Below are positions 18,941 through 34,059 of a stretch of DNA of 40,207 nucleotides, piece by piece. Location: the NCBI GenBank assembly GCA_018061685.1, contig JAGOTR010000005.1, positions 1-40,207 of the forward strand. The letters are read 5' to 3'. How positions within the stretch are numbered: position 1 is the first letter of the stretch; every line of letters starts with the position of its first letter. The notes under the pieces are model-generated. The model ran no database searches. It worked only from the letters and a program-made list of their open reading frames with translations, and was not told where the DNA came from. A program made the position numbers and the translations under genes. The DNA comes from Candidatus Magasanikiibacteriota bacterium (GTDB taxonomy: Bacteria; Patescibacteriota; Patescibacteriia; Magasanikbacterales; UBA922).

Positions 18941-19316
18941 TTCTTTTTGTATCACGTTTGTTCTGGTATTCTGTGAGGTATATTGTATACATAAATAATT
19001 TTATATTTATTTTCAGATACAGATTATTTTGTTGGATCTATGTTGCCTATGTGCCTCACCGGACTGGTGTGTAAGGCTTCGTAGGCTAGATATGTGTTTG
19101 CTCTCCCCACTCTCCCCTGTTTTGTACGGGATATACTCTATTTTGCGACACTACAAAATTCGACTTTAAAACAACAGGTAGTAAGGGTCGTCTTTTTTAT
19201 ATACTTTTTTCTTACAAGATTCTAGTCAGTAGTATACACCTGTATATATTACTGATTTCTCGTCTCTTCATGGTTTGGTTTAATACCATTGGTCTCATAG
19301 CAAGACTCAGCTTTGT

Positions 19317-19346
19317 CTGAGGGCTACCTGCCTGCCGGCAGGCAGG
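19317..19346. repeat. Palindromic CCTGCC/GGCAGG repeat, copy 1
   Basis: Contains the perfect 20-bp palindrome CCTGCCTGCCGGCAGGCAGG at 19327-19346, preceded by CTGAGGGCTA. The leading 22 nt recur as a direct repeat at 19579-19600. Translated, this DNA yields the LPAGRQA peptide often seen in falsely extended reading frames. Confidence 0.85.
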
Positions 19347-19578
19347 CGACGGGCAAGCTATGGATCATTGCAACAAAAAAATTTTTGAATAAAAAATGTA
19401 AATTACAAGATCTGTGTGAAAAATGGCTAGAGGATTCTTTACGTACCGGCTATCAGGTACAGGTATACTCAATAGAGAGTCTAAGACCACATAAGCCATA
19501 CCCCCTCTCGCCTGCTCGCGTACGAATAATTTTATTGTGCGACACATCATTAATAAGTAACTTTTGACCCGACTTCGC

Positions 19579-22734: not shown

Positions 22735-22743
22735 GATGTTGAC

Positions 22744-22775
22744 TTATAACTATTAACAATTAACAGTTAACTATT
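22744..22775. repeat. AT-rich repeat (left arm beside the S23 gene)
   Basis: Built from words TAACTATTAACAATTAACAG and GTTAACTATT. The reverse complement of these words (TTAATAGTTA, TTAATTGTTA, AGTTAACTGTTAA) appears at 23174-23208, so the two segments bracket the S23-type gene in inverted orientation. Confidence 0.6.
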
Positions 22776-22778
22776 TTG

Positions 22779-23138
22779 TTATTTATTATTTTGCCGTAGT
22801 AGTTTGATAAAACCACCAAGTTGTTTGCTAATATCACAAGCGTCTTTAAATAAAGTTATATATCTTTCTTTTGATATATACCTATTATCTTTTGCTACAT
22901 CTAAGCAGGCAACAACTTCGCTTACTGACGCAATAGATATTTCTAAAAATCTTGCAAATTCTCTATCAGACTGTTTTGCGGAACCCTCAGCTATATTTAA
23001 TATAATTGATAGTGCTGCACGTGATATCTGATCATATAAAGAATACGATACACGTTTATCAAAACAAACAACTATTGCTTGATAAAAAGTTTTTGCATCT
23101 GTATATACTTTAAATTGAAAAAATCGAAATGTATCCAT
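22779..23138 (-). CDS. S23-type four-helix bundle protein (23S rRNA intervening-sequence family)
   Basis: 119 residues of the four-helix bundle family: FKVYTDAKTFYQAIV, the hallmark YSLYDQISRAALSIILNIAEG, SDREFARFLEISIASVSEV, and a last helix DACDISKQLGGFIKLLRQ. Homologues are often encoded inside intervening sequences of 23S rRNA genes, and free-standing copies are common in small-genome bacteria. Molecular function is not established. Here it lies between tRNA-Tyr and tRNA-Thr on the same strand, bracketed by inverted AT-rich repeats. No rRNA gene is in the window. Confidence 0.88.
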   Translation of the reverse strand: MDTFRFFQFKVYTDAKTFYQAIVVCFDKRVSYSLYDQISRAALSIILNIAEGSAKQSDREFARFLEISIASVSEVVACLDVAKDNRYISKERYITLFKDACDISKQLGGFIKLLRQNNK

Positions 23139-23173
23139 ACTCCCCTCCCTCGTATATATACATCAATTACCAA

Positions 23174-23208
23174 AGTTAATAGTTAATTGTTATAAGTTAA
23201 CTGTTAAC
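23174..23208. repeat. AT-rich repeat (right arm beside the S23 gene)
   Basis: AGTTAATAGTTAATTGTTA followed by AAGTTAACTGTTAAC. It is the inverted counterpart of 22744-22775 and lies between the S23 gene start and tRNA-Thr. Confidence 0.6.
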
Positions 23209-23212
23209 CCAG

Positions 23213-23285
23213 AGCCATCTCGGGGGCTCGAACCCCGGACCCACGGTTTACAAAACCGTTGCTCTACCAGCTGAGCTAAGATGGC
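23213..23285 (-). tRNA. tRNA-Thr (anticodon TGT)
   Basis: On the minus strand GCCATCT at the 5' end pairs perfectly with AGATGGC at the 3' end, followed by a T discriminator. D arm TAGCTCAGCTGGTAGAGCA, anticodon arm ACGGTTTTGTAAACCGT with TGT, and T arm CCGGGGTTCGAGCCCCC are all canonical. CCA is not encoded. Confidence 0.96.
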
Positions 23286-23292
23286 GTCGTAA

Positions 23293-23384
23293 ACACATAA
23301 CCATTAACTATTAACAATTAACTTTTTATTTGAACATGGTGTATATTCAAAAAGTTAATTATTACCTGTTAATGGTTAATTGTT
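23293..23384. repeat. AT-rich inverted repeat pair overlapping the end of the TPR gene
   Basis: AACCATTAACTATTAACAATTAAC (left copy) is followed about 35 nt later by GTTAATTATT and TTAATGGTTAATTGTTA (right copy, opposite orientation). The right copy overlaps the stop codon of the TPR gene and encodes its last residues. Confidence 0.55.
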
Positions 23385-26395: not shown

Positions 26396-26403
26396 AACGG
26401 GCT

Positions 26404-26460
26404 TGCCCGGCGCCTGCCTGCCTGCAGGCAGGTAGCCCTCAGGCGAAGACGGGGATGACA
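26404..26460. repeat. Composite repeat: CCTGCC/GGCAGG palindrome plus CGGGGATGACA end
   Basis: Contains CCTGCCTGCAGGCAGG at 26419-26434, then TAGCCCTCAGGCGAAG, then ACGGGGATGA. Read on the minus strand it repeats the CTTCGCCTGAGGGCTACCTGCC order seen at 19574-19596, and joins it to the arm of the 8141-8213 repeat. It separates glyS from the M16 gene. Confidence 0.75.
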
Positions 26461-31654: not shown

Positions 31655-31849
31655 GGTAATATGCAGATATGCGGATAATGCAGATTTACGGATGTTATTG
31701 ATTTTCGTGTGTTATTCCGAGTTTACCCTGAACCTGCCTGCCGGCAGACAGGCGAAAAGAGACATCAGCCGAATGGAGTCGATCGAAGGGCGAGGAGTGA
31801 CAAAATAAGTATCCGTAAATCTGCATTATCCGCATATCTGCATATTACC
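31655..31849. repeat. 195-bp element with 39-bp perfect terminal inverted repeats
   Basis: The arms at 31655-31693 and 31811-31849 are perfectly complementary over 39 nt. Each arm is built from degenerate octamers: ATGCAGAT, ATGCGGAT, AATGCAGAT, TTACGGAT. Inside lies a CCTGCCTGCCGGCAGACAGG palindrome (31733-31752). A related but diverged inverted repeat is at 33958-34059. There is no transposase. It separates holB from the glycosyltransferase gene. Confidence 0.9.
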
Positions 31850-31856
31850 ATAGCAA

Positions 31857-32996
31857 TCATTCCCCTATCAACGCAGACAGTGTACGCTCTGCCGTTGCAT
31901 GCCACGAAAATTGTTTGGCTCGTTCGTGTCCGTTTTGTATACACTTGGTGCGATAGGGTGCATCATCAATCATGGTAAAAATACCAGCGGCAATACTTGC
32001 GACAGACAGTGGGTCCACAAAGCACAGCGTATCATTCCCCGCTATTTCGGCCATACTGCTGTGTTGTGATGTAACCACAGGCACACCCGAGCCCATCGCT
32101 TCAAGAACCGGTATACCAAACCCTTCGGACAAACTTGGAAATACAAATACTTCGGCAGCAGACAGAATGTATGGAACATCTTCTTGTTCCACCCAACCGG
32201 GCAAGAGAATATCTTGTTTGTAGGGTGATGTGTCAATCGCCTGTTGTACGGCTTCGTACCCATAGCCTGGTTTACCAATGCAGACCAATTGTCGAACCGT
32301 TTGTGGATATGTGTTTTGTACTTCCGTAAATGCTTGAATAAGTCGAGCGGTATTTTTTTTATATTCTTGCCGACCAATCGTGAGAATATATGGCTTTTGT
32401 ATGCCATATTTTTTTAAGACACGATTGGTTTCTGCTGCGTCTTTTTTTGTTGCATATTCTGGTGAATAGCCATGCGCGATGGGCGTTATGTTTTTTTCAA
32501 ATTGTGTACCAAAAAATTCTGTAATCTGTTGTTTGGTATACGCTGATGGGGTAATAATATGACGCGCATGGCGAAGAGCAAATCGTACCGACCACAGCGA
32601 GTACCACTGTTCAAACCAAGAATAACTTTGGGGAAATTCAATAGCGGAAATATCATGTACGGTCATGACCGTGTTTTTTGGGTGAATAAGGGGCATCACA
32701 TGCGCTGGTATCCAGAGGATATCGGGTGTATGAAACAACATCTCGAAACTGAGGCGTGCCTGTGTCCAATATTTTTTGGGTGGCCACTTAAGATGTTTGA
32801 CGCTCCAGCCGATAGGCAGATTGGCGCATTGTGATGTAGGCGGGGTATGAATATATAAAATAACCTGTATTTTTTTGTATAATTCCGGGTTTGTTTGCCA
32901 CATTTTTTTTAATTCCTCAATCACAAAATAGGTGTACCATTCGACTCCTGTTTTTTGCGGCGCGTAGGCGCGAGATGCATCAATACCCAAAATCAT
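31857..32996 (-). CDS. GT4-family glycosyltransferase
   Basis: 379 residues with a GT-B fold. The N-terminal acceptor domain includes GIDASRAYAPQKTGVEWY and MTVHDISAIEFPQSYS. The C-terminal nucleotide-sugar domain has YILTIGRQEYKKNTARLIQAF and the E-x7-E motif in SEGFGIPVLEAMGSGVPVV. Retaining transferases of this type use GDP-mannose, UDP-glucose or similar donors for surface polysaccharide, and the specific sugar cannot be read. ATG 32996 was chosen because it lies 10 nt after ribE and gives the normal MILGIDAS N-terminus. Likely the last gene of the rfk-ribE-GT unit. Confidence 0.92.
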   Translation of the reverse strand: MILGIDASRAYAPQKTGVEWYTYFVIEELKKMWQTNPELYKKIQVILYIHTPPTSQCANLPIGWSVKHLKWPPKKYWTQARLSFEMLFHTPDILWIPAHVMPLIHPKNTVMTVHDISAIEFPQSYSWFEQWYSLWSVRFALRHARHIITPSAYTKQQITEFFGTQFEKNITPIAHGYSPEYATKKDAAETNRVLKKYGIQKPYILTIGRQEYKKNTARLIQAFTEVQNTYPQTVRQLVCIGKPGYGYEAVQQAIDTSPYKQDILLPGWVEQEDVPYILSAAEVFVFPSLSEGFGIPVLEAMGSGVPVVTSQHSSMAEIAGNDTLCFVDPLSVASIAAGIFTMIDDAPYRTKCIQNGHERAKQFSWHATAERTLSALIGE

Positions 32997-33006
32997 GAGA
33001 ACAATA

Positions 33007-33591
33007 TTATCGAGTGGCTTGAGTAATATATTTGGCAATCATATCTATTTCTACATTCAGCATGTCTCCGACCGAGACGTTCTCAAATGTGGTATGGTGT
33101 TGCGTAAATGGGACGAGTGACACGACAAATCCTTCTTTTGTGACGGTTGCAATGGTTAGGCTGACGCCATGCAGAGTAATTGCCCCTTGTGGCACAATAT
33201 AGCGTTGCCATTCACCCGGGAGTGTACATGACACGAGGAGTGTTTCACCTTGCGTTTCTGTATTCATAACTGTCGCAACACAGTCAACATGACCATACAC
33301 AAAGTGCCCTCCAACTTCGTCCCCTACTTTGAGTGATGGTTCTATATTGACGGACATTCCTTCGGTCAGCGCAGAAAATGCTGTTTTTGTTATGGTTTCT
33401 TGCATTACATCAAACACAAGGATTGAGCCATGTATTTCTGTGACGGTTAAACACACGCCCGAAATGGCAACACTTGAGCCCAATTGTACGAGTGCGGCAA
33501 TTGGCCCGGCATCAACCGAGAGTCGATACGTGTTTATAAAGACTTCTTTTTTTTTGATTGTTCCTGTGTGTTGAATAATGCCGGTAAACAT
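33007..33591 (-). CDS. ribE: Riboflavin synthase alpha subunit
   Basis: Dismutates two 6,7-dimethyl-8-ribityllumazine molecules to riboflavin. 194 residues with two lumazine-binding repeats: MFTGIIQHTGTI with SSVAISGVCLTV, and VGGHFVYGHVDCVATV with GAITLHGVSLTIATV. Each has the conserved Ser/Gly/Thr pattern. The partner genes ribA/B, ribD and ribH are not in the window. It is 10 nt downstream of the riboflavin kinase gene and 10 nt upstream of the glycosyltransferase. Confidence 0.96.
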   Translation of the reverse strand: MFTGIIQHTGTIKKKEVFINTYRLSVDAGPIAALVQLGSSVAISGVCLTVTEIHGSILVFDVMQETITKTAFSALTEGMSVNIEPSLKVGDEVGGHFVYGHVDCVATVMNTETQGETLLVSCTLPGEWQRYIVPQGAITLHGVSLTIATVTKEGFVVSLVPFTQHHTTFENVSVGDMLNVEIDMIAKYITQATR

Positions 33592-33601
33592 ATAATTTTT
33601 T

Positions 33602-33949
33602 TTACCTTATGAGTGCGTAAATTTTTATAATATCTTGTGCAATTTTTTCTTTGAGTGCCTCAACTGTTGTATAGGGAATATGATCACTTATTTTGTCTTG
33701 CACTGTCACGGAGAGCTTCTGCCCATAGAGTGACTCCCCTGTGTAGTCGAGAAGATACACTTCTATTTTTTTTCTTTCATGATTCACAATAAGAGCACCC
33801 GTGTAGAGCGTATTATTTGGTAGCGTCACTTTGGCTGCATAAATACCATTCCACGCCGAAACACGTTCAAATGGGGTATCAAGGTTTGCCGTTGGATAGC
33901 CTAATGTTCTTCCAATTTTGTCTCCATGAATCACGGTGCCTTGAAACAT
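33602..33949 (-). CDS. Stand-alone riboflavin kinase (flavokinase domain only)
   Basis: 115 residues equivalent to the C-terminal half of RibF. FQGTVIHGDKIGRTLGYPTANLDTP carries the PTAN motif for Mg-ATP binding. NGIYAAKVT, YTGALIVNHERKKIEVYLLDYTGESLYGQKLSV and VEALKEKIAQDIIKIY complete the fold. It phosphorylates riboflavin to FMN. The N-terminal FAD synthetase domain of ordinary bacterial RibF is absent, and the ATG is well placed, so this is not a truncation at a repeat. FAD formation would need another enzyme, for which the RibL-like protein at 10196 is a candidate. Confidence 0.9.
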   Translation of the reverse strand: MFQGTVIHGDKIGRTLGYPTANLDTPFERVSAWNGIYAAKVTLPNNTLYTGALIVNHERKKIEVYLLDYTGESLYGQKLSVTVQDKISDHIPYTTVEALKEKIAQDIIKIYALIR

Positions 33950-33957
33950 ATAGTTGT

Positions 33958-34059
33958 ATATTCAGATATTCGGATAATTCAGATATACAGATGTGTATAT
34001 CTGGATATTCAGATTCATAGATATATCCGTAGATCTGAACTATCTGAATATCCGAATAT
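33958..34059. repeat. 102-bp imperfect inverted repeat related to the element at 31655
   Basis: Arms at 33958-33992 and 34025-34059 match in 30 of 35 positions. The left arm is made of ATTCAGAT, ATTCGGAT, AATTCAGAT and ATACAGAT, that is, the octamers of the 31655 element with GC changed to TC. The 32-nt centre also contains ATTCAGAT. It lies between ctpA and the riboflavin kinase gene. Confidence 0.85.

Follow-up and report, generated by a model that had tools for sequence, protein, structure and literature searches.

The two long inverted repeats analyzed here, from a Candidatus Magasanikiibacteriota bacterium, are probably gene-less, MITE-like copies of a small selfish element built as an iteron arm, a GxxExxY gene, and an inverted arm. 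Both lie in a 40,207-nt stretch of contig JAGOTR010000005.1 (hereafter, the window). As we picture it, the complete element would comprise an inverted arm of degenerate 8-base iterons, about 0.4 kb with one GxxExxY PD-(D/E)XK nuclease gene, and the arm again in inverse orientation. The nuclease would bind the iterons, each octamer being one site with two octamers per 17 bp. It may then cut or process the element ends, a step that would open intergenic gaps to the element and, in trans, to its gene-less copies. The latter would arise through internal deletion, and closely spaced arms would stay mismatched at positions that the protein does not read, as a perfect short-loop palindrome would be unstable. 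The nuclease would thus move or maintain the element, and arm recognition would be the first likely job for the GxxExxY family. We found no open-access literature linking GxxExxY to such arms.

Features of the two repeats, of the neighboring heptamer elements, and of gene-bearing relatives (window positions, or locus/genome)
Feature	Position or locus	Strand	Details
Copy 1 left arm	31655..31693	+	four degenerate octamers ATGCAGAT ATGCGGAT A ATGCAGAT TTACGGAT, flank GGTAAT; 39 nt, 100% complementary to right arm
Copy 1 interior	31694..31810	.	117 nt, no gene; usual interior replaced by another repeat
Copy 1 right arm	31811..31849	-	inverted-repeat match to left arm
Copy 2 left arm	33960..33992	+	ATTCAGAT ATTCGGAT A ATTCAGAT ATACAGAT; PWM match and pairing
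Copy 2 spacer	33993..34024	.	32 nt, without gene; further degenerate octamers inside
Copy 2 right arm	34025..34057	-	differs from left arm at 6/33 positions
Heptamer arm of sister element, GTTAAYN type	22738..22772	+	inverted repeats I6/I20
Four-helix-bundle gene inside heptamer arms	22779..23138	-	23S_rRNA_IVP (PF05635 / TIGR02436); Pfam E 3e-25, NCBIfam E 3e-25
Second heptamer arm of sister element	23174..23208	-	inverted repeat
tRNA gene	23213-23285		between gene-bearing heptamer element and gene-less hairpin
Gene-less heptamer hairpin	23292..23384	.	arms 23292-23327 and 23349-23384, 21 nt apart; inverted repeat I4
GxxExxY genes of one subfamily inside octamer arms	L086/G044, L123/G041, L070/G011, L143/G022, L175/G037, L208/G025, L310/G045		
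GxxExxY gene of that subfamily inside octamer arms	L142/G075		genome of another family
Incomplete cases	L068 (G011); L129 (MFRB)		truncated gene (L068); contig-end gene (L129)

The first-pass annotation had described perfect 39-bp arms at 31655-31849, and this is what we find for copy 1 (see table). For the element that it had placed at 33958-34059, the inverted repeat is real, but the arms are 33 nt instead of 35 nt long and imperfect (alike at 27/33), with mismatches that include the free octamer positions 5, 13, and 30. The replaced interior of copy 1 consists of the palindrome ACCTGCCTGCCGGCAGACAGGCGA at 31732-31755 followed by a GGAGTGAC-type repeat. Similar replacement occurs in two further copies of the same genome (three in all, copy 1 included), and about 14 copies of the genome share the anatomy of copy 1. 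The GC-to-TC change reported for both arms of the second copy is present; it corresponds to octamer position 3. Because both copy 2 arms and a second copy in the same genome (C32:3.1k) carry it, the change marks a subfamily of the repeats. The 211-bp gap separating the glycosyltransferase and DNA-polymerase-III-delta' genes is mostly taken up by copy 1, and the 116-bp gap from the riboflavin kinase gene to the S41 protease gene mostly by copy 2. The position of the two copies on either side of the rfk-ribE-glycosyltransferase unit, which the first-pass annotation had pointed out, looks incidental because other copies sit elsewhere in the genome. Like MITEs, the window copies have inverted terminal repeats without coding capacity; unlike 23S rRNA intervening sequences (IVS), which lie inside an rRNA gene, both sit between protein genes. 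A search for known RNA families found two tRNAs in the window and nothing else, and a known RNA family was accordingly rejected as an explanation.

Within the window, a two-octamer pattern allowing up to two mismatches has 16 matches versus 4.45 +/- 2.27 in shuffles, and none of 100 shuffles reaches 16. Genome-wide (851 kb, 63 contigs), exact matches to ATNCNGATATNCNGAT number 14 forward and 15 reverse, about 29 in total, and the reversed-pattern control has 0; these copy numbers come from pattern searches, which undercount degenerate copies. Chance local duplication, the reading that a lack of further copies and of conservation in relatives would have favored, has almost nothing left to recommend it. 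Both were found, so that the genome-wide family suggested by the first-pass annotation is real. The octamer framework AT-N-C-D-GAT recurs across the genome itself and many related genomes, including about a third of those of the same family. Moreover, when 84,980 species genomes were scanned for a core pattern of 20 fixed bases, 58 stretches matched, all in Magasanikbacteria-lineage MAGs and none elsewhere (we estimate about 0.5 by chance). Chance local duplication is refuted by this genome-wide and lineage-wide recurrence. The core pattern has zero matches in viral contigs, on which ground virus-borne spread was rejected, and a scan of genome contigs with riboflavin synthase yielded no relative.

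Copies follow a common plan of a four-octamer arm (octamers 1 and 2, an A, octamers 3 and 4), a spacer, and the inverted arm. Spacers in the window's genome range from 24 to 162 nt, and some copies are single arms. Across 90 arms, octamer positions 3 and 5 are free. Position 5 was unconstrained in the search pattern, yet C does not occur there in any arm. Complete octamer elements are also present in G075, a genome that belongs to another family; most other single matches in the search of relatives' genomes are isolated and lack arms.

Full versions of the element, found in relatives, carry a nuclease gene that the earlier reading had missed. In G044 and G041, at two different loci, arms about 0.5 kb apart surround one ORF whose product is assigned to PDDEXK_3 / GxxExxY by both Pfam and NCBIfam; the L086 protein is 132 aa long. 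The protein of the octamer-armed gene scores 88 bits against PF13366 (cut-off 22) and 81 against TIGR04256 (cut-off 35) and has an intact D...ExK motif; the catalytic residues D71, E81, and K83 are invariant in GxxExxY proteins. Its structural model (pLDDT 90.6) has lambda exonuclease and Cas4 as nearest folds, and the protein is predicted with high confidence to be a PD-(D/E)XK nuclease. A sequence search of solved structures returned nothing useful. Overall, the spacer holds a single GxxExxY gene in at least eight other genomes, and from these same-armed, gene-bearing elements we deduce that the window copies are gene-less derivatives of a GxxExxY element. A second armed GxxExxY case in G041 has weaker octamer matching on one side. 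Wherever a gene lies between octamer arms it is GxxExxY, so the elements hold GxxExxY or nothing; the S23p/IVP ORF of 23S rRNA IVS is absent from them and present in the separate window element at 22738-23208. Octamer-armed proteins cluster in the protein tree (2 changes versus 7.3 in shuffles, 0/500 as low), where strict monophyly is not resolved. We did not find a GxxExxY gene in the window's own assembly (89.5% complete). Gene-bearing kin with the same ends, as expected of a MITE, are thus present in relatives and not in the genome itself, and the copies in that genome would be either relics or dependent on a GxxExxY gene that was missed.

REP/BIME elements are dispersed extragenic palindromes with RAYT transposases. 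The octamer elements are likewise dispersed extragenic palindromes, but differ in size and word structure, and neither the window genome nor the richest carriers encode a Y1 transposase. A related reading, in which the repeats belong as MITEs or REPs to some ordinary transposase (Y1/RAYT or another) and the GxxExxY gene is a passenger, would fit the inverted ends, the lack of genes, the dispersal, and the presence or absence of copies between sister species. We consider it improbable, given that the gene between octamer arms is always GxxExxY, that arm words diverge with GxxExxY sequence, and that no target-site duplication is seen. A PF01797 search also found no Y1_Tnp in the octamer-richest genomes (G000, G011, and G025) or in G038 and G075, and with a count of 0 in all five a RAYT/REP origin was rejected.

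At the same intergenic site, different genomes hold the element in different states. The gatA-LOG gap contains the nuclease and arms in G044 and G036, in different dialects and with the G036 gene broken in two pieces, and an arms-only hairpin in G025. A full element occupies the gap-pgk gap in G041 and G025, and one arm does so in G044. Empty sites are also found in close genomes: six elements of G025 are missing at the aligned sites of G038, a second species of the same genus, through gain or loss, and some of these are inside the rplM-rpsI region. No target-site duplication is visible at the six sites, which have diverged such that a short one could be lost. Several genera have elements at the gap-pgk, gatC-gatA, and groES-groEL sites, so the elements there could be ancient retentions or could serve the host. 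Copies lie inside the rplM-rpsI, groES-groEL, and gap-pgk operons; on account of these, and of the lack of terminators at the elements, intrinsic terminators were rejected.

Two further observations concern individual sites. One G025 copy (L149 versus L139) has a 17-bp internal deletion, exactly as long as a two-octamer block, which suggests that slippage removes whole units. In the tRNA-hydrolase region of genus g9 (L112/L179/L101), an orthologous arm site has a TTCGTA-type word in MFRB and octamers in G008 and G033, reflecting either word replacement or independent insertion.

The repeats could also be chromosomal binding sites, of nucleoid or segregation type, for a host protein. The fixed framework with free positions and the inverted arrangement would suit such sites, as would conservation in place that extends to G008, a genome whose nearest GxxExxY gene found has another arm word. 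We regard this explanation as very improbable: there are few copies per genome, most sister genera lack them, they are present or absent at orthologous sites, and they are tied to one nuclease clade. The conservation in genomes such as G008 may nevertheless leave room for a host role of old copies.

What is conserved in the arms is the framework of the word. Among nine orthologous arms, taken from alignments, 1/216 framework sites differ versus 14/81 free sites (Fisher 6e-8). Comparing arm with arm in short-loop copies, position 3 differs in 22/22, position 30 in 22/22, and position 11 in 19/22 (versus 0/15 of the long copies); mismatches in the 22 framework columns average 0.09 per pair. In long-loop and gene-bearing copies, most free positions match between the arms. 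Loop class is partly confounded with genome, but within G025 and G044 themselves the gene-bearing elements follow the long-class pattern at positions 11 and 30. Because short-loop arms mismatch at free positions while framework columns agree, selection holds the word framework, not pairing, and pairing is disfavored where the arms are close. An identical framework whose free positions are forced to differ in closely spaced arms is an unusual signature, and a measurable one, of selection that acts against palindrome pairing in addition to sequence recognition.

Preserved base pairing, which the first-pass annotation had taken as a sign of selection on the hairpin, therefore lacks support as a general rule, and base-pair covariation as a selected trait was rejected given that the arms of short-loop copies anti-match. 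The arm-to-arm conversion that it had offered as another option fared better: in the window's genome, arms are alike at 35/40 free positions (0/5,000 re-pairings as high), which fits arm-to-arm homogenization within subfamilies. Copies within a single genome have come close to saturation at free positions while keeping the framework intact, a pattern that fits long-lived constrained copies better than recent bursts.

These comparisons bear on the view that the repeats are host regulatory hairpins, in which the arms pair as RNA stem-loops, serving as attenuators or as processing or stability elements, and are maintained through selection on base pairing. Predicted folding is indeed strong (DNA z -5.7 to -8.0), copies occur directly before start codons or after stops, and the framework is conserved in place. 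However, arms of short-loop copies in relatives are less alike than expected, being mismatched at free positions above chance. The A/G difference is found in both directions on the sense strand, copies are absent at the same place in a sister species, even in the rplM-rpsI operon, and no terminator-like site occurs at the window copies. We give this explanation a small share of the probability and regard it as unlikely.

The window also contains, at 22738-23208, a complete gene-bearing element of a sister kind, in which heptamer arms enclose a four-helix-bundle (IVP) gene, and a gene-less heptamer hairpin lies nearby. Other repeats were seen in the window and in linkers of octamer elements. 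The palindrome ACCTGCCTGCCGGCAGGCAGGT and its variants occur in the window at 19326, 19588, 26412, and 31732, and a 48-nt inverted repeat (19311-19358 / 26401-26448, 92% complementary, 7 kb apart) includes it. At L070, L075, L079, and L080 of G011, this palindrome falls precisely within the linker that joins octamers 2 and 3, and other genomes have other mini-palindromes there (L057, L101, and L166). Because different mini-palindromes occupy this linker across genomes, it is an insertion hot spot.

More broadly, arms accompany other genes of both protein families. At an inverted-repeat score of >=36, flanking inverted arrays were detected for 18/25 GxxExxY genes (72%), 15/29 IVP genes (52%), and 10/200 control genes (5%), several of the 10 being octamer elements themselves. 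GIY-YIG genes, at 2/25 versus the 5% of controls, are unsupported as a third arm-flanked family despite one striking case (G038, L230): in the gatA-LOG gap (L230, 300-800), a GIY-YIG-like ORF lies between inverted GTCATCCCGACCGAAGTGGAGGGATCCC repeats, and the same site in relatives holds octamer elements. The flank test also picked up an unplanned positive control, a Y1 transposase gene (PF01797; L177, 5294-5714) between AAAGTCCCGTTAGGGACG-type inverted repeats of ordinary REP/Y1-like kind. The arm period is 8-9 for GxxExxY (17 for two units) and 7 for IVP (four-helix-bundle, 23S_rRNA_IVP). Across 39 armed GxxExxY elements, arm-word similarity follows protein identity (Spearman 0.45, Mantel p = 0.0005), with ATnCnGAT in the octamer clade and ATACTAAT and TCCGAATCnACAAAT in neighboring proteins.

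Outside CPR, arms surround GxxExxY genes of Bernardetia, Bacteroides finegoldii, and Sphingomonas (between fabD and fabG), and those of a Treponema gene are shorter. GxxExxY plasmid loci of Fusobacteria, Persicobacter, and Prevotella have no clear arms, and that of Gemmatirosa has an array nearby and no clear pair. Heptamer arrays surround four-helix-bundle genes in five cyanobacterial plasmids and one Azospirillum plasmid, loci found with a consensus-like typed query sequence used solely for that purpose; in Calothrix the upstream array is outside the immediate flank, making a weaker case. The arrays in these plasmids (L303-L308) are inverted and near-perfect, of GGGAGTA, AGGGAAC, and TTAGCTT types; the heptanucleotide repeats of cyanobacteria may thus be the arms of IVP elements. 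We see roughly even chances that GxxExxY nucleases and IVP four-helix-bundle proteins form a pan-bacterial class of small mobile elements, each protein recognizing its own inverted short-iteron array (8-9 bp and 7 bp, respectively), and that gene-less debris or satellites of these elements account for much of the short-word repeat DNA, so far unexplained, between the genes of CPR bacteria, cyanobacteria, and Bacteroidota.

The closest described relative is the 23S rRNA IVS. That of Coxiella burnetii is 428 nt long, with a 28-bp inverted-repeat stem, an S23p ORF, and tandem heptamers (GACAGAT) upstream, and is regarded as selfish (PMC4990558). The octamer elements resemble it in size (about 0.4 kb), terminal inverted repeats, and one small ORF, and the window element at 22738-23208 shares its protein family and heptamer arms. 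In contrast, the octamer elements encode a PD-(D/E)XK nuclease, sit between protein genes rather than in rRNA, and have many gene-less copies. In CPR bacteria, insertions in rRNA code for homing endonucleases and, in some cases, IVP (PMC11270868). Like bacterial MITEs (reviewed in PMC10969869), the octamer elements are short, gene-less, dispersed, and intergenic, with inverted ends and gene-bearing kin that have the same ends. They differ in that no target-site duplication is seen, the GxxExxY nuclease is not a known transposase, and each arm iterates a degenerate 8-mer in which some positions are fixed and others free.

Intergenic 7-mer arrays are also known. In the accessible portions of the sources, those of Xanthomonas and Nostoc are described as G-rich, with fixed and free positions (GGGANTN) and a location near start codons, and Xanthomonas has about 70 convergent inverted pairs (PMC4692102); TAACTGA repeats form such arrays in Beggiatoaceae (PMC4679880). 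The same portions contain no protein link for the heptamer arrays of these three groups. The octamers, in contrast, belong to another protein, and heptamer arrays flank four-helix-bundle genes at the plasmid loci described above. GxxExxY is a common annotated family, named merely in passing in the accessible open-access text. With inverted iteron arms of its own, arm words that change along with the protein, and gene-less copies, this 'unknown nuclease' would become a recognition system whose DNA substrate is defined and which can be tested directly. Separate puzzles would also be linked: the octamer hairpins of CPR genomes, the heptanucleotide repeats seen in cyanobacteria and Xanthomonas, and the selfish 23S rRNA IVS.
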